Positions 18,560 to 57,597 of a stretch of 64,000 nt of DNA are shown here, piece after piece; the stretch's first letter is position 1, and each line of letters starts with the position of its first letter. The stretch is from the NCBI GenBank assembly GCA_022393335.1, contig JAJEKB010019319.1, forward strand, positions 8,584 through 72,583, given 5' to 3'. This DNA comes from Macrotrachela quadricornifera. Lineage: Eukaryota; Rotifera; Eurotatoria; Philodinida; Philodinidae. A model generated the notes under the pieces. It was given only the letters and a program-made list of their open reading frames with translations. It searched no databases and had not been told where the DNA came from. Made by a program: the position numbers and the translations under genes.

Positions 18560-19936
18560 CTCATATATAATAAAAGAAATGTGTAGAAGAAATAGTATCC
18601 ACTAACGTTTTAAAAAATATAATCTATAAATTTTTCTAAATTGGTCTTACTTTGAAGTAAGAAAAATATTTTTTCCAACAAATAAATTTTGCTTAACTAT
18701 GTTGTTTTACGTCGAAATCTGAATTCAGCGCACTGATAATGTTAAGGGAGCGCTGTCTTCACATCCAAGACTTTTATTTGTTATGGAATGACTCAGATAA
18801 AAACACACACGTTTAGTTTATCATTAAACAAAGAATAAGACAAGATAAAATAATGTAACTCATCAGGTGAAGAAGACAGACATTTTACCAAAATTATTTA
18901 TACTTGTCAATGAAAGATAGTTGAAATTCGATATTGGCTTGTGGATGTCTTTTGCACTTTAGTAATTAAAATTGATTCTACTCATAATTAAAGCATATCA
19001 CGAAAGATTAGTTAAATGATTGCAAACTCAAATTAAAGATGCAAAGAATTAACAATAGTAGAAATATAGATTACTAGAAAAATACTCTGTATTATTACAT
19101 ATAGGCGTACCGTTTTTTTTTTTGATTTATTTTATCTATGATGTAGAAACCATTTAATGACAAAAATATATCAATAGAATATAGACAATGATACGTTAGA
19201 AAAGTAATACCATACTTGAATAAATCCAATCTGGATTCGCTATATAAACTATTCTCTCTTTAAAGATTGAAGTTGTTAAACAATTTCATGTGAAAATTTT
19301 ACGTGTATCGGTAAGACACGCTGTATTGAATTCGACTGAATTATAAAATTCTATACGTGATAATAATACAAGATTTCGACTTGTTGATATTCACAATTTA
19401 ATGATGGAATATCTAGCAACCAATTACTTTCGAAACATCAAAACATATGAAGATATATTTTAAATCTCAGATAAATATGTTCAAGAAGTGATTGAAACAA
19501 CGCTTGAAGAAATGTTCGATGATGATAGTTCAGATACATGAAATTTTGCTTGTATCTCATTTCTTCTACTTTCTTTTTATAATACAAGGAATTTGAAACG
19601 TAATAAAATAGGAGCGATGTTTTAGTTTATTAAGAATGAAAAGTAAATGAGTGCGAATCATTGTTTGTGTATTGCGTCTATTTTTGATCAAAAAGGTTCT
19701 AGTCAGGATTGAATTACACTTTATTATATTTCTTTCTATCGAAAATCGCATTGTTTTTATACAAAACATATCCTTGTATATTGGAGAGAAGAAAAGAGCA
19801 ATAGATTAGAGCAAAGTCCAACATGATGCCGGAGTTAAGAACAAAGTACGAAAAAATCAAACATCATACATATAGCACTGTTTAATCGGGAGTATTACAT
19901 CTATAAATAAAAAAGTATTGTAGACGAAGTTTCATC
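18560..19936. other. Mostly featureless; one degenerate coding-like segment
   Basis: At 19350-19541 the plus frame reads RFRLVDIHNLMMEYLATNYF, then a TAA, then KYVQEVIETTLEEMFDDDSS and a TGA. The balanced composition on both sides of the stop suggests a pseudogene fragment of unknown family. Nothing else was recognised in this stretch. Confidence 0.3.
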
Positions 19937-21841
19937 ATGAATATGTTTTGGATGATTTATGGTGGATTGTTAGTATTTGTACTATTAATCAATACATTTT
20001 CCATAATTTCATCTACAAATTTAAATCAATCCGATGCAAACGATACAAATAATGAAAATCTTACAATAACAAACAATTGTAGTGGTAAGTTATTTCATGA
20101 TTTTTATACTTCTCAAATCAAAAAATAAAATGTATTAATAAATTCTATATAATGTATAAAATATTATTCTGATGATTGTTATTAAAAGAGTATTTATTAC
20201 TTTAGAAGAAACTAACATAACAAAAATTTTTATTGTTTGTGAGATGATCAAAATGAATATTAGTAATAATTCTCAAGTGTTCTATCCGATCAGTTTGACA
20301 TACTATGATGATATTAATCACTATAGTAGAAGTGCAATTACATTATCAGTTTGCACAGTCGAACCTGGAACAGATGTTGATGTGTCTAATATTGTAAGCA
20401 AAATAGATCGTTATTATATATAAGAATAAAATATAATATAATATTTATATTTAGATGAAAATAATTGGAGAAAATCGCGTTCCTTTTGCTATTAAAAGTG
20501 GTGGACATAATTTAAATCCTGGTTTTAGTTCAACAAAAGGTGTTCATATAAGTTTGCGTCGTTTTCGTCAAGTTATTTATCATGAAAATAATAAAACCGT
20601 TGATGTAGGTCCAGGACTTACTTGGGTAGATGTTTATAAAGCATTAGAACCTTACAATATCAGTGTTCTTGGTGGTAGAGTACCAAGTGTTGGTGTTGGA
20701 GGATTAGCATTAGGTGGTGGTTATGGATGGAAATCAAATCAATATGGTCTTACCATAGATAATATATTGGAATATAAAGTAAGATTGACTTAAATTGAAT
20801 GGAATTTGAATATATATTTATTTTAGATAATTACTCCAGATGGAATTATTGTATATATAAATAATCAATCAAATTCAGATATATTTTTCGGTCTTAAAGG
20901 TGGTTTGAATAATTTTGGTATTGTTATTAATTTTAATATGCGTGCATTAATACAAACTGATGTTTATGGTGGAAATATATTCTATGGTCCATTGCAATTT
21001 AATAATGCATTGACTGCTATGATTAAATTTCAAAATATAAATAGAGATCCTAAAGCTCAAATATTAGCATCTATCACTTCATTTAAAGGTATACCAACGA
21101 TGAATGTTACCCTATTTTATGATGCTCCAACAGCTCCGAATAATGTTTTCAAAGATTTTAAGAATATTTTTTATATTGGAACACTTAAATCTCGTTCATA
21201 TGTTTCATTTGTTGAAGATTCACCGATTTTTCTTGGTCGATATATGCGGTAAATGATACATCTTATTTTTATCCTAAGAATCTTTTTCAGTTACTACTGA
21301 ATTTTCACGCTGACAAAAATCTCATTGCTCACTATCAATCCATATAAAATGAAAATATTTTATTTCTAGTGCTCGTTTTCATTCTGTATCAGTTTTAAAT
21401 CTTTCAATTCCAGTGATGAATACAATTAAACAATTATCAATTAGTTACAGTTTACAGTTAGTTACAATGGCAGATACTTTTGTCACATTTGCTATTGAAC
21501 CATTTTTATTTTCATATTTTGATAATTCAACAGATGGAGCATATCCTCATTCATCAGATAATCCAGTTTTTCCCATTCTTATTCATTTTGGTTGGCAATT
21601 AATCACTAGTGATCAATATTTAATTAATGAAATGGAAATTGCTGCTAAGACTATCTTACAATCAGCAATACAAGATGGTCAAAATATTAACAATTCAAAA
21701 CAAATTCTTTATCCAAATTATGCTCTAGAAACAACTCCTCTTGTAATGATGTATGGAGATAATGTAGATAGATTAAAAACCATTCGTCAATCATCGGATC
21801 CTAATAATGTTATGTGTTTAGCTGGAGGATTCAGATTTTAA
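19937..21841 (+). CDS. Secreted FAD-linked oxidase, berberine-bridge type (five exons)
   Basis: Exons 19937-20084, 20206-20393, 20455-20778, 20827-21248 and 21370-21841 splice in frame to about 517 residues with no stop. A hydrophobic N-terminus (residues ~1-25) looks like a signal peptide, and N-x-S/T sites follow. The FAD-binding domain is clear: KSGGH with the His (about residue 130) that carries FAD covalently, VDVGPGLTWVDVYKAL, PSVGVGGLALGGGYG and QYGLTIDNILEY. The C-terminal BBE segment ends NYALETTPLVMMYGDNVDRL then PNNVMCLAGGFRF. The position of the second FAD-linked Cys of plant berberine bridge enzymes reads GGR, so a single covalent bond is expected. The family oxidises diverse substrates with O2, giving H2O2; the substrate is unknown. 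Closest-looking relatives are fungal, so horizontal origin is plausible. Length matches the family. Confidence 0.92.
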
Positions 21842-25176: not shown

Positions 25177-26451
25177 ATGGGTATAATTGATCGTATTAGA
25201 CTATTATGGAACATTCTTCGTTTCAAACTCATTACACTTAATATTTTCGATACAAAATCAACAAATGAAGAAATTATTCGACGTGAAATTCTTTCAACTC
25301 GATTATTTCTAATTCTATTTTCAATATCTATATTCATAATAAGTCTCTATAATTGAATAATTATTCATGTTCAAATTGAAACTCTTAAATTTCCAACACA
25401 AATATCAATATATTATAATGAATTTACTCAAATAAAATCATCATTTCATGAAGTTTGTTCAAATTATTTTGTTTCTGAAGAATAGATTAATTTAATCTAT
25501 CCAAATAATTTATCAATTATATGGCCTATGAATATTTGAACAAGTTTAAGTTCAATGTGGAGATTAATTTCTGATTTTTGTAAATATTTAAATAATACAA
25601 TTAATGATGTTTTTAATGAATTTTATAATACACAATTAATTAGTTCATTGATATTTTCAGAAAATTTATTAAAAATTCAAATTGAAACAATGATTAAATT
25701 AATATATAAAACAGCATCAGAAACGTTTATTCGATCATATATATTTGCTCATCAAATAACACAATCAAGTGGATTTTTAACAGGTTTATTAACTAATTAT
25801 ATTACTTTATTACCAATTAATGGATGGGAATCATTTCGATACTTATATACAGGACAAAATCGTTATATACAAACAAATTCATTAGAAAAAATATGTTATT
25901 GTCAAAGTGATAGATCATGTCCTATGTCTGGAAATTTATATTTATATAATTTAACATTAATTATTTCTAATGAAACATTACCTGGTATTATTGTTGATTG
26001 TTTATCAATATAAATGATGTTACAATCATCATTTGAATGTTTTTATAATTTATCATGTATTCAAATTATTTTATCAACATATTCAACAAATATAAATATA
26101 TCATTATTAAGTAGATTTAATCCTGAAACAAAAATTGAATTTATTATAAATGAACTTTTTATTGAAGATATTAATTATAAATCATATTTTTATCAATGTA
26201 ATCCTAATTATTGTACTTATTCAATTTCACGTAGATTTGATATTATTTTTGTTATTACAAATATTATTGGTCTTATTGGTGGACTTAATGTTGCTTTACG
26301 TTTAATTAGTCCTTATCTTATTTATTTTATTTTATATTTAAAAAATAGAAGAACTCGCACAGATCAAAATATTCAAATAGAAAGTAATATTTCTTTCTTT
26401 TTTTTAATAAATATTTTAGTCTTATTTTTATCTTTTAGGATTACCAATTAA
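25177..26451 (+). pseudogene. Bdelloid multi-copy membrane protein, copy 1 (stops)
   Basis: Read from ATG 25177 in one frame. A hydrophobic N-terminal segment (RLFLILFSISIFIISLY) is followed by a long extracellular-type region with conserved CYCQSDRSC and ECFYNLSC cysteine motifs. A C-terminal membrane segment (ITNIIGLIGGLNVALRLISP) precedes a basic tail. I recognise this order as a large uncharacterised bdelloid family; its function is unknown. Four in-frame stops occur, near 25356 (TGA), 25483 (TAG), 25538 (TGA) and 26011 (TAA). At least the second and probably the third fall where the family has Trp, consistent with TGG to TAG/TGA transitions. The frame is otherwise kept over about 420 codons, so decay is recent. 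Confidence 0.7.
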
Positions 26452-27609
26452 AATTCGTTTAAGAAATTTGATAAATAATATCAAATTATATTTTATTGAA
26501 TTAAATATCTTCAATAGTCATTCACGAGATATAATTCGAACAAAAAATGAACGTATTTCAACTCGATTATACATAATATTATTAACAAGTGCAATAAGTA
26601 TCCTTATATTTTATACATATTTATCATTACAAACAATTATTAGAACAATTGAATATCCATCAGTACATGAATATGAAATATTAGAAGAAAAATATCGAAA
26701 TACATTAACTGGTAGTTATCCTCCTAGTAATTTTCGTTCATCAGCTTCATCTCATTTTCAAATGTTATCAACATTATGTGAATTAGAAAATTTAACATTA
26801 ATTCATGTTAATCGTAGATTTTATTCAACAGAATTAATTAATAAAGAAATATTATCTCGGAATTTATTTATTTCTCAAACAAAATCATTAATAAATTGAA
26901 CAAAATTTGAATTTTCATATACATTATCAATGATAAATACAGTTATTCATTCTAATCAATATATAAGTGGTACTCAAACAAATGCATATCTTTTAACAAT
27001 GGATTTAAGTTTATTTGGTATATATTCAAATAAATCATTACAAATTTATCCATCTAGTAGAACAATATAAATTGTATTTGCGCAAAAGATTCGACTTGTA
27101 CAGGTCCATTTAATAATAATTTTCTTTGGAGTATTTATGGAGTACGTCTTGGATGTTATATTATGGATTTAGTACTTCAATCATCACTTATTTGTTGGTA
27201 TAATCAAACTTGTTTTAATAATTTTCGAGAAGCTTTTCTTGCTACTGATGTTTATTTTTCTAATGATATTTCATTACTTGATGTTACTTTAGATAATAAA
27301 TTATCTCCAGATACTATTTTACAAACAATTGTTCAAGAAATTATGGTTAATTATTGGAATACATCAATTTCATATGACAATTTTTATAAAGAATGTCATC
27401 CAATTTATTGTAAATATACATATCAAATTATAAATAATCCTTTATTAATTGTTACAACTATAATTGGATTATTTGGTGGACTTAATATTATTCTTAGACT
27501 AATTTGTCCTATTATTGCTAAAATGTTTGTCAAATGTAAGAAGAGACTTACCTTGAATATTCGATCATCTACAAATGATAATCATCAACAGATTTGTAAT
27601 GATGAGTAA
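26452..27609 (+). pseudogene. Bdelloid multi-copy membrane protein, copy 2 (stop, frameshift, deletion)
   Basis: A second copy follows the first head to tail. It has the N-terminal segment (STRLYIILLTSAISILIFYT), NFRSSASSHFQMLSTLCELE, a cysteine cluster CICAKDSTCTG, CWYNQTC, and the C-terminal membrane segment TTIIGLFGGLNIILRLICP with a basic tail ending at 27609. A TGA interrupts at about 26897 and the frame shifts near 27065 before CICAKD. Compared with copy 1, roughly 40-60 residues are missing after EILEEKYRNTLT, the part that should hold the FHEVCS motif. Tandem duplication followed by independent decay is the simplest history. Confidence 0.7.
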
Positions 27610-34883: not shown

Positions 34884-35329
34884 AATCGAGTATTATATTT
34901 ACCCTCCGCGAAGTTGTTTGTTCGCCATCAACTACTGCTGACTGACCAAGAAGAAGGCTTGAAATGGTTCAACCATTCTTTCTCAAAGTAGGATGTGAAT
35001 GATTTTAATTGATCATGCTGAGGAGAAACTAATGCTTTCATCGAAAGGAAACAGTTAACACATATTTGGAAAGAGGATCAAATTTTGATTCTAACTGACT
35101 GATTTTTGCAGTCAGGAGTTGTTTCTAAGTGACCTAAAACTGGATAAACATTTTATACGAAGACTTTCTAGACGTAGGTTATTAACTCATCATTTATAAG
35201 AAAAAATACGATTCATTATATTTAGTATGAATCTTTGAAAATCTTTCTCTTTGATAGTCTTCTTTGACTATTATATAGATAAATTCTTCAATATTAATTT
35301 TTTACTAATCAATGTGAATATAGATTCTG

Positions 35330-35700
35330 AACATATCTGATGATTGACAGCTTAAGCAACTGTCTAAACGCGTCGTATGATGCTTTGAATCTAATTGTCT
35401 ATAAATTCACCACTTACTTTGATTTTTGAGATTTTATTCGTTTGCAAAAATAATATTCTAAACTTACCTGATGACTTTCTAAAGCAAGAACGAAACCGGT
35501 CGTAAGAAGCTTAGAATATTTTATTCTTCTAATGAAACTCATCCTCAATCTATAACTTCTAATTGATATGACAATACATCTTGCTATGCAGATTATATTT
35601 ATTCCGAACTTACCTGATGATGAATGGGTTAAGCTCCATTCGAAACGCATCGTAAGAAGCTTGAAATTATCTTCCAAACTCACTCTCACCCTGATCCTGA
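35330..35700 (-). repeat. Three ~60-bp direct repeats resembling exon ends
   Basis: On the plus strand the block CTTACCTGATGA...CGTAAGAAGCTT(A/G)(A/G)AAT occurs at about 35465-35520 and 35608-35668, with a weaker copy at 35334-35390. Spacing is 130-145 bases. Read on the minus strand, the first two give KLLT-T/M-x-F-x-x-x-L followed by a GTAAGTT donor, so they could be duplicated exons, one per copy, like the LRR array. No acceptors or flanking exons could be fixed. Confidence 0.4.
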
Positions 35701-36020
35701 CCCTCAAGGTTTTATACGAAACCAAAAAAAGGTTTCGCGTTTATGCCCAGATTAAGATCCTTTTTTAGTTTCGTAAAAAATCTTTTTTTTTAGAGTGCAC
35801 CATCAAGGAAATAAAGAGGATTCTAGAAAAAGAAGGAAAACGCAGATTTATTTTTACGGACGAACGAAAGACAAAAATAGAGTGAACATAATGAACTGCA
35901 TGATATATCGAGCAGAAGAGATTAAGGACGTCCAAAGAAAAATAGAAGAACGATTAGTTCATGCACATGTAACATTATGAGTTCTACCAGGTCTGATTTT
36001 GGTATTGTATCGTAGTAATT

Positions 36021-37553
36021 TTACAGGCGTAAAATAATCTGGTTGCCATCACGTAAGGGATTCTCGCCAAAATATCTTTTAGTTTCGTAACTAAGCGAAA
36101 TAGAAGAGATCAAATCCGAAAGTTATCACTAAAGCGACAGTGCAGAACACTGCTTACCTCGCACGCACATTACCCGCTACAACATCTTTACAACCTTGAA
36201 TGCATCGACGAACATCTTGATCCACCTTAGCATCACCTGTGGGTAAAGGCAAACGTTGTTCTGCAGCTTCGAACTTAGCAAAAGTTTCGTGAACGAGCTG
36301 AGCGGTATGATCAATTGCAGCCTGGGGAGATAGATCATATTGATGAATAAGTGTTAGAATCAAGTTGTCAATTTGACCGTCTGCCTATCGTTGTATCACA
36401 TTATAAGTCTTTAGGGGACATGATTAAATACAAAATGACTTACAATTTCTTGGACGAAAGAAACCATGTCATTCATCCTGATGATAAAATGCTAATAGCG
36501 CTTTCTAAATTGAAACTAATAAAGACAGAAGTGAATAAACTCACAGTATGATCAAATCATTTGCCATCAACAGTATTGTTTGTATCGCTTCATGCTCCAT
36601 GATATGTTTCGGAATGTCGAGTCCGTAGGCATATCTAAGAGGTCATGGTGTTTAAAACTCAAAAAAAGTAAGAGATCCGGAAACACATACTCGACTAATG
36701 CAATACTAACACAGGCAGCACCACTTTGTCGTCGTTCTTCCAAATATTGTTCAACAGTTTGAAAGGAACCTTTACGATCACGTTGTAGCTGGCACACTGC
36801 ATCGGCATATTTTTGTAGATGGTGGAGTAGCCGTGCTCGAGCATCTATGAAATAGAATTATTAATTGATATATCGATAGTCAACATCTATAAAAACTAAC
36901 CTGAGGTAGAACCAGTTACAACTTTGGCAGCTATTTCACTAAAACGTTGAACCATATCGCATACTTCAGGAACTTCACCAATGAAAGGAGTTGATCCAAG
37001 AGTATATGTGAGAAAATCTTTCAGCTGTTTGCGAAATAGCTTCGTTCCTGCGTCGTCATCTTTCAATGAACCGCAGTCGATTGCTAGCAGATAGAACTTG
37101 AGTTCAAATGTTTTTATCGCATGAGTTAAAACTTACCATCATCGCAAACAAATATCTATGAGCAATAGAATTACGTTAGCTTCAAATCTATTAAATGAGA
37201 AAATATACTCACCCATCCGGTGTAATATGATACTGTACGATATCGTTCTTCTTCAGCATCAGGATAGAAGCAGCCACTAGTTTTTGCATAATCCCCATCA
37301 ATGATACGTTTGCGCATGCGTGGATCTTTGGTCCAGCTATATAATACCGGTCAATGATAATCAATCGAAAGTGTGTAAACTTATATACATACCTAAATAG
37401 CCAAGACTCTAGTTGTGGACGTATTTGTGGGTACATGCTGTTAATTTTAAAATACCAGCCAGGAAGAAAAGCATACAAATCTGGTATGACAATTTGGCTG
37501 CCTTTGATTTTCTGGACGACACTTTGACGAGAACAATAGGGACGTTCGAGAGG
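36021..37553 (-). CDS. Class I terpene synthase (nine exons recognised)
   Basis: Exons in plus coordinates, 5' to 3': 37393-37553, 37213-37336, 37137-37155, 36901-37083, 36691-36844, 36545-36634, 36444-36477, 36158-36384, 36021-36090. All join by GT..AG with phase kept, giving 353 residues from the first recognised codon to TAA. Motifs, numbered from that codon: IPDLYAF near the start; Asp-rich metal motif DDAID at 100-104 (after WIFVC); RRQSG at ~200-204 containing the pyrophosphate sensor; NSE triad NDMVSFVQE at 246-254 (N246, S250, E254); terminal KRYFG at 335-339 with the RY pair. Length and spacing match microbial/fungal class I enzymes, which bind Mg2+ and cyclise farnesyl or geranyl(geranyl) diphosphate; the product cannot be read from sequence. 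The residue before SYETKRY is Ala where family members usually have Trp. The initiator exon was not found (37560-37760 is likely). Probable horizontal acquisition, now intron-rich. Confidence 0.92.
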
Positions 37554-38130
37554 CTAGAATACATAAACTTGCACAAAGTGATTGTCGTTTTTGAAGGAAA
37601 AAAATTATACTGTGAAAAAGGGATGAAATGCATTCTATGCATACAAGTGAAAGGAAACCGCTTTGAAAAAAGTAGAAATGAAATATTTTTTTTATACGTG
37701 TACTTCATGAGACTTTAATCTAGTAATCCGTAGCACGCATAAGAGTGTAATGAACAAAGACGTACTTTTCAGATTTCTGTCTGAATGGGCATCAAAATAT
37801 CAAAATACACAATTTTATTCAGTTTTTCATCGTCTCTCAAATGAGACATTGTTCGGAATAATCTGTCAAAAAACGAAAAAAGGATTTTTAGATGATATCT
37901 CGAAAGTCATAATCACAGTTTTTTTAACTAAAATCTTTTAAAATATTTTTAAAAATAGGATTTGTGCCTTGTTATGATCACACTCAACTGAATAGCGAAT
38001 GCTTCTTAAGTATGTTGATCAAAAGACAATTCAAAGCTAACTCGCTATATATCATTTTATTTGCCATAGAGCTTATAATTAATATGTATGTTTGTATGTT
38101 GAAGACAACACTTCTATCTAGATATACGAA
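37554..38130. other. 5' flank of the terpene synthase
   Basis: The recognised coding starts in phase 0 after a TTCTAG acceptor at 37554-37559, so a short upstream exon with the Met must lie to the right (higher coordinates). Several ATGs exist at 37600-37760 on the minus strand, but none gives a phase-0 donor that I trust. No other gene was recognised. Confidence 0.4.
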
Positions 38131-38143
38131 ACTGACGACAGAC

Positions 38144-38479
38144 TAGGGGTGCACTTTAACTTTAAACTGTACAAAAGAAAGTAGTTAAGGTTTAAAGCAA
38201 ACTTTAAACTTTAAGAGTTAAAGTTAAAGTATGACTCTTTAATACTTTAACTTTATTAAAGTTTAGTCACTCTAACTTTAATACAGTTAAAGTTTAAAGT
38301 TATTGCCGAAAACCATATAGAATTGAACACGAAGGGTTAACAGTTATTTTTGATTTTTATGCCTGCTTTTATTAAAGTTAAAGTATTAAAGTGTCATACT
38401 TTTACTTTAACTTTAACTCTTAAAGTTTAATGTTTACTTTAAACTTTCATTTTGAAGTAAAGTTAAAGTGCCACCCCTA
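38144..38479. mobile_element. 336-bp hAT-type MITE with 8-bp target duplication
   Basis: It starts TAGGGGTGCACTTTAACTTT and ends AAAGTTAAAGTGCCACCCCT-A, imperfect inverted repeats. It is flanked by CGACAGAC on both sides (38136-38143 and 38480-38487). The interior is filled with repeats of TTTAAAGTTAAAG in both orientations. The 8-bp duplication and (T/C)AGGGGTG termini are typical of hAT elements. No coding capacity. Confidence 0.9.
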
Positions 38480-39018
38480 CGACAGACCGAATAAAAAATA
38501 ATTCTCCACTATAACTACCGTTCTACACAATCTATCTAAGTTTGATTTGACAACTGAGTATTTGCATAAAAATATCAGACTTTCGATAATGACAAGGCTA
38601 GTATTATGTGTATTTCATTGTCTTCTTACTTTCCCTAAGGTGTCAGTTACAGGCACTTCATTATTATTGGCCATATTGTTGGATGCTTCAATTGGTTTTA
38701 ATAGGCAAATGCCATCGTCTTGCGATTTCAATTGTTCATGCATATCAGATGATATCGATTCCTTGACTGTTGGTATGGCTACGTTGTCAGTTTGAAATGC
38801 ATGCATCTAGTAATATACACAAACATAGGTGAAGTGTATAGAAAGAAATTAGTTCTCTCTTTCTAAATCGATTTTCTTTGGAGATACAGAGGTGCATCGG
38901 TATAGAAGTAGGCATGCATTGAACTCGAAGGTTCAAGTTCAGATTCGGTCTAGACTGCAATTATTTTCAGTTTTTCAATAAAAAGAAACACAAGTAAGTC
39001 AAAAGCGGATCGCTTTAA

Positions 39019-39314
39019 ATAGGCATGCATCGAACCCGGAAATAGACCGCGATTCCCGGGTTCGTCATACCAGGATCCGGCCATTCACGGTATCCGAAAT
39101 ATCAGGCTTAGTCATTGGTTTACTTTGGTCTATAGTAGGCATGCCCCACAGCTTGGAATAGATCGGAAACCACCGCACCGAGGATTCTCAGATTCCGTCG
39201 TATTCGGTCGCGGGGCATGCGTACAATAGACCAAACTAAACCAATGGCTGAGTCCGATATTTCAGGTACCAGGAATGACTAAACCCGGGATGTTCGGGCT
39301 CGGTGCATGCCTAT
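39019..39314. mobile_element. ~296-bp nested palindromic element
   Basis: Outer ends ATAGGCATGCATCGAACCCG and CGGGCTCGGTGCATGCCTAT are inverted copies. An inner pair, TATAGTAGGCATGCCCC and GGGGCATGCGTACAATAG, repeats the GGCATGC theme, with matching ACCAGGATCCGG- and CCAATGG-type blocks between them. A related but shorter GGCATGCAT end lies at 38911. GC-rich relative to flanks. No open frame. Confidence 0.75.
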
Positions 39315-39524
39315 ATTCATCGTATTTGGGATAGACGATGAAAGGGTAAAATAAAGAAAAGGAAGTAATATTTCAATTGCTTTGAATGAGTTTGATTGTT
39401 GTATACTTGTAGAATTGAATATTTCGTTTTGAATAATGAAACAATTGATACTATTATTGTAAGAAAAATGTTTTTTTTCTGCTTTATATCTGTCTGTTAC
39501 CTATATAGAGACTGAGTTTTTTCC

Positions 39525-39660
39525 AAGGGGGAAAAGGTGGTACTCCAGGAGTGCATACTCCATTCTATTCCGACGATACTCCAGTCGTACTCCACTGATA
39601 CTCCACCGTACTCCACTCTACTCCATCGATACTGCAGTCTACTCAAGGGGAAAAGCGAAT
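39525..39660. repeat. Minisatellite of ATACTCCACTG units bounded by CAAGGGGAAAA
   Basis: Degenerate copies of (G/T)(A/T)ACTCCA(C/G)T lie between CCAAGGGGGAAAAGG and CTCAAGGGGAAAAGC. The same ACTCC unit recurs at 44430-44515, 45890-46240 and 46860-46990, so it belongs to a dispersed element family. Confidence 0.65.
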
Positions 39661-39910
39661 TCCATGTATCGACGATACGGTGGTGATACATACGATACGG
39701 TTACAATCCAGAGAATATATATAGACTAAGAAGATAAAATTTCATTGAATGATGGAGATACAAAATCTACATGACAGAACTCATGAGATTAAGGCCTCTC
39801 CTCCTAAAAACAAAGTCAATTTTCGTTAAAAATTTCGAAAATAGGACAAATATATGGAAAGATTGCCTGTGTTTAAATCTTTCTGAAATGATATGATTTA
39901 TAATCAACGC

Positions 39911-40717
39911 GGAAAAAAACGGATTCTCGGATCGCAGGATCCTACGGATTGTACAATCGCTCGTGCGATCATACGGATCGCGGATGCGAATGGTCCACTA
40001 ACGGTACCTTTGGACCCGTCAGTCCTATATTTTGGGAGTACCCTTACGTCCTCAAGCCCGCTATTTCAAGTTATCCTCAGGTCTTCAAGTTCTATATTTC
40101 GGAGGTAGTCTTAGGTCTTCAAGCCCTATATTTTAAAGGCACCCTAGGCTCTCAAGTTCAATATTTTAGAGGTACCCTAGGTCCTCAAATCTGATATTTC
40201 GGAGGTACCCTTAGATCCTCAGGAGCTACTCTATCGGGGTATCCAAAGGTCCTCCAGAGTCATGCTATGGAGATCCTAAGGAGTATCCATAGGTGCTCAG
40301 GTTCCATTTTATAGGGATCCTCATAGCGTATTGAGTTTCGCCATAGACTAGTTCTGGAGAACCTATTAGTAACCCATAGGATAGCTCTGGAGGACTTATG
40401 GGTACCTCCATGTGGTAGCCCATGAGGATCTAACGATACCCCCATAGGATGACCTTTGAGAATCTATGAATATCTCTATATAATTGGACTTGAAGACCTA
40501 AAGGTAACCCTGCGCAAAAGCCCTTAAGGACCTATAGATACCCTCATATAATAACCTTTGAAGGTCTATGAGTATCCCGATATAATAGAATCTGACGACC
40601 TAAGAGTTTCTCCAAAATATAGGACTTGAGGACCTAAAGGTACAGTGAGCAGAACATTGATATCGGCTATTCGTACGATATATACGATCCCGCGATCCGA
40701 CAATCCACTTTTTTCCC
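39911..40717. mobile_element. Foldback element built from inverted minisatellite arrays
   Basis: The left end GGAAAAAAACGGATTCTCGG is the inverted counterpart of the right end GCGATCCGACAATCCAC-TTTTTTCCC. Inside, units of about 30 bp read GGTCCTCAAG..ATATTTCGGAGGTACCCTTA in the left half and their reverse complement (GAGGACCTAAAGGTAC) in the right half. This is the layout of Foldback/Galileo-type elements, whose long inverted repeats consist of tandem subrepeats. No coding capacity. Confidence 0.65.
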
Positions 40718-43624: not shown

Positions 43625-44418
43625 TATGGAAAGGGTACTTCCAAAATATAGGACACCCTCACCCCTAAGTGTACCTCTGTATAATAGTCCTTGCGGATCT
43701 AAGGGTCCTCGAAAATATAGGACTAGAGATCCTAAAGGTATCTCTGAAATATAGGGCTTGAGAACCTAAATGTACCTCGAAAATATAGGACCAGAGGACT
43801 AAAGGGTACTGTAACGACAAATGGAGATAAATGCCTGTTTGTGCCATTCGGCACGATGTTTATTTGGCTAGATCACCACTCCAAATGTATCTTCTCTCAT
43901 CTTACATGCGCATTTTATAGATACAGATACAGGTCAAGCGCCAAACATGAGAGGACAAAGGGAGAGGATCAGTCCATGATGAAAAGGTCAGGCAGATGAA
44001 GCATAACGGTCATTGATCGTTACAGGTACCTCCGAAATATAGATGTTGAGGACCTAAGGGTACTTCCAAAATATAGGACCAGAGGTCCTAAGGATACCTT
44101 CGAGATATAGAGCTTGGGGACCTAAAGGTACCTCGAAAATATAGGACTAGAAGGCCTAAGGGTACCTCCGAAATATAGGTCTTGAGGACTTAAGGGTGCC
44201 TCCAAAATATATGACTAGAGGTCGTAAGGGTACCTCTGAAATATAAAACTTGAGGACCTAAGGGTACTTCCAAAATATAGGACTTGAGGACCTAAGTGCA
44301 TCGCTGTATAATAGTCCTTGAGGTCTTAATGGTACCTCCAAAATATAGAGCTTGAGGACCTAAACGTATAGTCAGCGGAACATTTGTATCCGCGATCCAA
44401 TAATCCATTTTTTCCAAG
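43625..44418. mobile_element. Minisatellite-bearing element related to 39911-40717
   Basis: Units of about 30 bp (GAGGACCTAAGGGTACCTCC-AAAATATAG) repeat throughout, the reverse complement of the left half of 39911-40717. The right end GCGATCCAATAATCCATTTT-TTCC matches the right end of that element. Only one array orientation and one clear end are present, so this looks like a half copy. It is interrupted by a small MITE at 43810-44024. Confidence 0.55.
43810..44024. mobile_element. ~215-bp MITE with TGTAACGA ends
   Basis: It starts TGTAACGACAAATG and ends CATTGATCGTTACA, imperfect inverted repeats, within the GGTAC-containing minisatellite. GGTAC occurs on both sides but is part of the repeat, so a target duplication cannot be proven. 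The interior is unique and GC-richer, without a gene. Confidence 0.6.
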
Positions 44419-56895: not shown

Positions 56896-57342
56896 ACATT
56901 AAAACTACAAATTTGTGTTCACTTGCCAAATTTAAAGAACGATCTATTATTTTATTATCTATTTAAATTCGTCTTAGTTAGCTACTGAAAATGAAGAGTT
57001 GTGATCAGTTTATTTTTCGATTGATTCCTCCTCTGTAACAAGAAAAAAAATATGCTATTTTGATATTGTTTTTTCAGTCACGTGGACTTCTACCATAGTT
57101 GTTAACAAGTACGGTTTTTTTTCTTATTTGTGGATCAAAATCACAATGGATACGCTTCATTAATCTCTAGATATAATGATAGTAAGATTAATGTTTATCA
57201 TGTTTTCTCTTTCTACCTCACCCTACTCTGACGATTGATACATTTATAAAGACAAAAAATAAATACAAAATTATAGTCATTCATTATTTCGTAAACATAT
57301 TAGCACAATTCATCGTCAATCGTCAAACAGCAACAAAATAAA

Positions 57343-57597
57343 ATGGCCTACACCAAGAAATTGTTTTTTACCATGGTGGTGCTTGCAATTTTTATTGCAA
57401 TTATAGAGGCACAACCTCAGTGTTCTTGTACTTCTACTGGTTTTACTTTCAGTGCTGGTAATCATAATTGTCAGCAGTTTGCTGGTGGTAACCGTGGTTC
57501 TGTTCCATGTTCCAATCCATCTGCTACGTGTGTTTCTAATGCTAATAATGCTAATGATTGTGCTAGTTGTTGTTGTTGTCTTAGTTTTGGTGATTAA
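57343..57597 (+). CDS. Small secreted cysteine-rich peptide
   Basis: A single-exon 84-residue product. Residues 1-23 are a textbook signal peptide (basic start, then FFTMVVLAIFIAIIEA) with likely cleavage before QPQC. The mature ~61 residues contain ten cysteines: CSC near the start, four spaced singly, and a terminal CASCCCC-like run of four adjacent Cys. Gly, Ser and Asn fill the rest, and there are almost no charged residues. A TATA-like TTTATAAAG lies at about 57242-57250 and AATAAA at about 57666, as for a short, well-expressed gene. Extracellular location is clear; function is unknown. Candidates are a structural or host-defence peptide, but no known cysteine spacing was recognised. Confidence 0.75.
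   Translation: MAYTKKLFFTMVVLAIFIAIIEAQPQCSCTSTGFTFSAGNHNCQQFAGGNRGSVPCSNPSATCVSNANNANDCASCCCCLSFGD

Follow-up and report, generated by a model that had tools for sequence, protein, structure and literature searches.

A gene in the nuclear genome of an animal, the bdelloid rotifer Macrotrachela quadricornifera, probably encodes a functional class I terpene cyclase of microbial type that would have been taken up from a fungus long ago and retained for some small-molecule function. Animals seldom have classical terpene synthases, mites, octocorals and sponges being the reported cases. A 2019 survey, in its accessible part, concludes that animals lack them yet gives BLAST matches in two metazoan species (PMC6681836). 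Our literature search for rotifer or bdelloid terpene synthases found no report in a collection of 5.39 million papers; two articles that mention both rotifers and terpene synthases are by their titles on other subjects, and in the available text of one the enzyme occurs in a reference only (PMC13357843). The gene lies in a 64-kb stretch of DNA (hereafter the window; C3656:8584-72583) of a 450 Mb assembly of 5695 contigs, and its features are collected in Table 1.

Table 1. Features of the window gene and terpene synthase loci of the assembly (window positions; C numbers are contigs).
Feature	Position or loci	Strand	Remarks
Exon 1 (first resolved coding)	37393..37553	-	37494-37553 in frame; 5' boundary and start codon provisional; free of indels in both near-identical copies
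Exon 2	37213..37336	-	GT-AG; position and phase match copies on C4555 and C4341
Exon 3 (19 nt)	37137..37155	-	Holds first two aspartates of DDAID; position and phase as in C4555 and C4341
Exon 4	36901..37083	-	Position and phase as in C4555 and C4341
Exon 5	36691..36844	-	Holds sensor motif RRQSG (R180)
Exon 6	36545..36634	-	Position and phase as in C4555 and C4341
Exon 7 (34 nt)	36444..36477	-	NSE motif NDMVSFVQE; window and C4555 copies identical here
Exon 8	36158..36384	-	Position and phase as in C4555 and C4341
Exon 9	36021..36090	-	KRY and stop codon
4.4 kb block bearing the gene	35322..39739		Recurs on C4555 (L017 2029-6434) with 92% identity, in another context
hAT-like miniature inverted-repeat element	38144..38479		Upstream of the gene; 8-bp direct repeats CGACAGAC; also in the C4555 copy
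Class A (class of the window gene)	7 loci: C3656, C4555, C994, C4341, C2378, C4409, C4153		
Class B	1 locus: C5280		34% identical to 7ofl
Class C	8 loci: C2477, C4980, C948, C896, C897, C4631, C4286, C1139		Two exons
Class D	4 loci: C4677 three times, C4411		Frames of about 500 residues
Class E	3 loci: C4683, C4640, C1374 (L013, L015, L016, L030-L032)		Open frames of 402-412 residues

The initial annotation had joined nine minus-strand exons without a frame break, and rebuilding the exon chain bears this out. From 37553 to 36021, nine exons and eight GT-AG introns (56, 57, 53, 56, 56, 67, 59 and 67 nt, in order) maintain a single open frame that ends with a stop at 36021. Reading through the introns brings in an in-frame stop in six of the eight, and the other two (introns 1 and 5) shift the frame instead. 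The spliced model used here starts at 37493 and has 334 codons including the stop, i.e., 333 residues of which the first is I. Upstream of 37493 the frame stays open to 37553, immediately before which an acceptor-like TTCTAG is present in both the window copy and the near-identical copy on C4555. The intron sizes of 53-67 nt are consistent with those of bdelloids, for which the accessible sections of one study give medians of 55, 58, 67 and 61 bp in four species (PMC5916493).

Where, then, might translation begin? In the open frame of the window gene, no ATG in phase precedes residue 20 (numbering of the 333-residue model), and a screen of 41 candidates for a first intron upstream gave none that was convincing. 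The top-scoring candidate, which placed an exon 1 upstream and used the donor GTATGC at 37644, was rejected because the donor is absent from the C4555 copy. The paralog on C4341 starts with MSEAHVPELLEKF directly ahead of the conserved strand IIIPD, and neither the window copy nor the C4555 copy has an ATG at that place; comparison of the paralog N termini did not identify the start codon of the window gene. The options that remain are an upstream exon, perhaps in the conserved stretch at 37.71-38.12 kb, an internal methionine, or trans-splicing, which is known in bdelloids.

The predicted spliced product is by its sequence a member of a known enzyme family, terpene synthase family 2, class I. 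The profile search suggested in the initial annotation found this family: in Pfam the 333-residue product matches PF19086 (Terpene_syn_C_2) at 7.3e-37, with 127.5 bits against a cut-off of 23.7, which is far above chance. PF03936 also matches above its cut-off (1.6e-6), and these two were the sole matches; PF00348, which covers the animal terpene synthases derived from isoprenyl diphosphate synthases, gave none at 0.001. Among the families of named bacterial cyclases in NCBIfam (isoafricanol, epi-isozizaene, pentalenene and others), none of the nine listed scored above its curated cut-off, the best being isoafricanol synthase with 106.5 bits against 500. Terpene cyclases lead the best 60 of 69 matches to solved structures in the PDB, headed by 7w5f (5.8e-37) and 8h6q (6.9e-30).

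Every class I hallmark that had been listed for the gene (DDAID, the RRxSG sensor, the NSE triad NDMVSFVQE and the terminal RY) is in place. In the numbering of the 333-residue model, DDAID satisfies the first acidic motif DDxxD with D80, D81 and D84, and NDMVSFVQE satisfies the NSE triad ND..S...E with N226, S230 and E234. The sensor arginine R180 lies 46 residues before N226, the spacing seen in class I terpene synthases, and the terminal R316 and Y317 are present. Conservation was counted over 93 related rows, many of them fragments; among the rows with a letter at the position, the same residue occurs at D80 in 87/88, D81 in 86/89, D84 in 89/91, R180 in 89/89, N226 in 82/84, S230 in 82/83, E234 in 81/87, R316 in 74/82 and Y317 in 70/74. 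Within the NSE motif, position 233 is Q in the window protein and K in 78 of 85 rows. The paralogs on C4341, C2378 and C4409 retain K, and the solved cyclase 8gr5 carries M at this position.

As in other members of the family, the cyclase would consist of one domain, of about 340-355 residues, in which DDAID and N226/S230/E234 hold magnesium ions around the diphosphate of the prenyl substrate while R180, R316 and Y317 grip the diphosphate itself. The substrate is probably farnesyl diphosphate, a guess made by analogy with 7w5f and 8h6q. Once the diphosphate has left, the resulting allylic cation would fold within the helical pocket and undergo cyclisation, and quenching would give a hydrocarbon or alcohol. 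This suggests that the rotifer may be able to produce its own terpenoids, and we would guess that the gene was retained for a small molecule that serves, for instance, in chemical defence.

The window gene has a near-identical counterpart in the repeated block on C4555. The similarity of the two blocks ends on both sides, and the 6 kb flanking L017 on either side resemble the window in no more than two short stretches located elsewhere, so that the copies stand in different contexts. Both contain the upstream miniature element, which we take to belong to hAT by its terminal sequence and 8-bp repeat, and which was thus inserted before the duplication. The gene copies themselves are 97% identical. 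Over the 353 codons compared, the copies differ at 28 nucleotides (5, 5 and 18 at first, second and third codon positions) and ten amino acids, giving dN 0.0134 and dS 0.0766 (ratio 0.18) by NG86 and dN 0.0149 and dS 0.0586 (ratio 0.25) by YN00. The 1062 exon sites hold no indel and the motif residues show no difference, while 32 of 470 intron sites differ and all eight introns of either copy retain GT-AG. The gene is maintained under purifying selection. A recent pseudogene, whose protein would be inactive or no longer produced, might be suspected from the start codon that was not identified, from Q233 and from the stop within the C4409 paralog, but the dN/dS ratios by either method, the exons free of indels, the intact splice sites, the identical NSE exon and the M of 8gr5 at the position of Q233 make this quite unlikely.

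The host is an animal, as had been supposed. The Wnt profile, to our knowledge restricted to animals, has 45 matches in the same genome (best 9.6e-80). Two glutamate receptors were compared with solved structures: one, from a family with many long single frames, has as its best solved relative the ligand-binding domain of AvGluR1 (5e-80; next 3.6e-46), presumably an Adineta vaga protein, which would point to a bdelloid, and a fragment of the second is nearest to the kainate 4 chain (5ikb, 1.6e-19). About 19 kb from the gene, in the same window, a B-box protein matches 11 different PDB sequences, each of which is named as a TRIM-type protein (Midline, TIF1-beta, TRIM2, 3 and 29). A contaminating fungus or a chimeric scaffold as the source of the gene would agree with the fungal identity of its nearest named proteins, and with a GC3 of 0.305 (36021-37493), which is above the 0.09-0.22 of seven further coding stretches measured in the window, though an eighth, encoding a helicase, reaches 0.307. 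Against this stand two copies on different contigs and in different contexts, five further paralog contigs, intron sizes like those of neighbouring genes and of bdelloids, the B-box protein, and an identity of 24-32% to the fungal and unnamed matches that cover most of the query. Such a source is exceedingly improbable, and we regard it as ruled out by the copies in two contexts, the common intron positions and the animal marker genes.

The introns are shared well beyond the two near-identical copies. The paralog on C4341 is 54.7% identical to the window protein over 342 residues, and in a spliced alignment guided by that protein 8/8 introns fall at the same residue and phase, the fourth being 219 nt long. 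In the paralogs on C2378 and C4409, 7/8 window introns recur cleanly; around the fourth, the model places two long, uncertain introns. On this pattern the introns are most likely older than the duplications. A gene of probable fungal source, acquired long ago, would have carried its host-type introns by the time it duplicated. Part of the family is decaying, since the coding frame of the C4409 paralog is interrupted by a stop. That the window gene is "domesticated", as first proposed, agrees with eight introns common to a 55%-identical paralog and with purifying selection between the two copies.

A single-gene view is ruled out by the search of the rotifer's own genome. The PF19086 profile gave 22 matches on 15 contigs, grouped into 17 loci, and the window protein gave 48 matches with six additional contigs, for a total of 23 terpene synthase loci on 21 contigs in five sequence classes, haplotype copies included. 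Several loci form near-identical pairs that are likely haplotypes, e.g., C896 and C897, so the number of distinct genes is below 23. The class C locus on C1139 has a stop within its first exon match. In class E, 3/3 loci match trichodiene synthase (PF06330, best 9.1e-15) besides PF19086. One of the four class D loci is split over two frames and another is cut by the end of the fetched sequence. Class D (L011, L012, L014; three in a row on C4677, and C4411) was also seen to match PF19086 weakly and to bear odd motifs, e.g., DDYVVEK and NELFGMARD. Fourteen control genomes, all prokaryotes by name and so of little weight, gave no match to PF19086, PF06330 or Wnt.

In 6/8 class C loci a PF00348 polyprenyl synthase lies downstream on the same strand. 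Its frame opens 475-944 bases past the end of the terpene synthase frame in the five loci read (C2477, C4980, C948, C896 and C1139; L018, L021-L024), and no simple splice fusing the two passed the filter. They may be either a gene pair or a fused enzyme. No PF00348 match falls on the seven class A contigs among the matches listed. Long frames with a polyprenyl synthase near the C-terminal end were also noted, in several copies, on C5463 and C4095 (L058, L060); their N-terminal part has no Pfam match. Taken together, the classes invite the tentative proposal that several uptakes from fungi built a terpenoid arsenal for defence, in which some enzymes would be paired or fused with one that makes their substrate. 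Its five parts would be class A (7w5f-like, its eight introns being old), class B (a 7ofl/Cop4-like gene), class C (expanded, with two exons), class D (divergent, about 500 residues) and class E (resembling trichodiene synthase).

Horizontal acquisition of the rotifer gene, put forward in the initial annotation, is likely on the present comparisons, and a fungal source of class A is favoured. All named organisms among the protein database relatives are fungal and the unnamed ones cannot be placed, in searches that gave two matches among 1334 candidates and, with a profile weighted to Aspergillus, 84 among 7996 scored candidates. The absence of rotifer matches in this collection is uninformative, because a bdelloid-like membrane-protein query found six proteins, none of them named. 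That query comes from the window itself, where 25540-27606 on the plus strand holds broken members of a membrane-protein family that we take to be known from bdelloids. In BLAST, the gene product scores up to 154 bits with ascomycete rows vs. up to 87 bits with bacterial rows.

Trees were built with 17 of the 84 database relatives, chosen by hand, and with four of the eight class C loci, leaving out classes D and E. Class A was represented by the window gene alone, by two of its seven loci or by five (leaving out the incomplete C994 and C4153). With the window gene alone (27 rows), the window protein pairs with 7w5f, presumably a fungal enzyme, at 100/99; class A does so at 100/98 with two loci and 100/100 with five. 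Support for placing this pair on the ascomycete side is 96/87, 89/80 and 91/80, respectively. The initial annotation had proposed a phylogeny with fungal, bacterial, coral and insect enzymes, of which these trees supply the fungal and bacterial part; they contained no mite, coral, sponge or insect terpene synthase.

Placing class A with the bacterial rows while 7w5f is kept outside is rejected (AU p 0.0032, five of seven class A loci), and this mainly reflects the tie to 7w5f. Without 7w5f the same grouping is not rejected (AU p 0.148 with the window gene alone, 0.212 with five loci), nor is it when 7w5f moves along (0.284, five loci). What stands of the proposed transfer is thus the pairing with 7w5f and the fungal names of the relatives, while a bacterial tie goes unrejected in these settings. 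The fungal source leans on one long-branched row and follows only if 7w5f is fungal, the tie between class A and 7w5f being itself strong. A bacterial origin of class A would draw on the same unrejected topologies and on the existence of related bacterial cyclases (L001; scans of bacteria and of viruses each yielded a single confirmed locus), but we find it unlikely given a sister row that is presumably fungal and the higher BLAST scores to ascomycete rows.

A different history would involve no transfer into rotifers at all, with an early animal or opisthokont terpene synthase lost elsewhere, an idea raised by octocoral and sponge cyclases in the accessible part of one report (PMC12685057). 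Introns that are old relative to the duplications would suit it, and a single clade of classes A, B and C goes unrejected both when 7w5f is removed (AU p 0.241) and when it is included in the clade (0.115). One origin is rejected when 7w5f lies outside the group (AU p 0.0059 with two of seven class A loci, 0.00096 with five), and bdelloids are known for foreign genes, with 19.2% of their foreign transcripts most like fungal proteins in the available text of one study (PMC4632278). On balance, an early animal origin is improbable. Even so, the claim that multiple origins are required for the rotifer classes was softened, a single origin of A, B and C being unrejected in the two settings named.

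Among the closest known systems is 7w5f (terpene cyclase 6), which we take to be TaTC6, the trichobrasilenol synthase of Trichoderma atroviride. It is likewise a one-domain class I cyclase and the sister row, on a long branch, in all three trees that include it; it has DDEID where the window protein has DDAID, the same RY, and a common C-terminal pattern LPxxTxDxK and SY..RYF. However, the identity is 27.1% over 332 residues, which is no guide to the product of the rotifer enzyme, and 7w5f has NEILSLQKE in place of NDMVSFVQE. The presilphiperfolan-8-beta-ol synthase 8h6q belongs to the same family with the same motif order and 25% identity, but it groups with 9wf7 (100/99) beside ascomycete rows (93/89), apart from class A.

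The nearest published animal case found is that of trombidid mites, whose laterally transferred, microbial-type synthases, as described in the accessible sections, have expanded into families and share no more than 30% identity with their closest microbial counterparts (Dong et al., 2018; PMC6275457). By that description, which is the basis for setting them beside the rotifer, they differ in that their nearest homologues are bacterial or agaricomycete (PMC6275457). Canonical synthases are also indicated, by title, for arthropods, another phylum (Chen et al., 2024, PNAS), and the available text of a later article cites them as a rare gain by horizontal transfer (PMC13143122). Octocorals and sponges likewise have terpene cyclases in animal genomes, but as described in the accessible parts of two reports these concern marine diterpenes (PMC12685057; PMC11864185). 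Against a fungal pathogen, bdelloids employ NRPS/PKS genes of horizontal origin, according to a report whose text contains neither "terpene" nor "terpenoid" (PMC11258130). A terpene synthase family that is old, bears introns, is under selection and has expanded would put a second natural-product class beside these. It would also illustrate the naturalisation of an enzyme family by an animal, with about 20 loci for expression and product testing.

Scans of the 64-kb window with Rfam (gathering) and for tRNAs gave no match. An FAD-linked oxidase gene lies at 19907-21838 on the plus strand (FAD_binding_4 1.3e-22, BBE 3.3e-4), with two probable introns (61 and 48 nt) and a possible frame problem near 21249. 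A small cysteine-rich frame at 57319-57594 on the plus strand has no Pfam match and a likely signal peptide. Arrays of 33-34 bp repeats with GGTACC occur at 39968-40254 and 44025-44398 in opposite orientation, and are 72-85% alike in the matched pieces.
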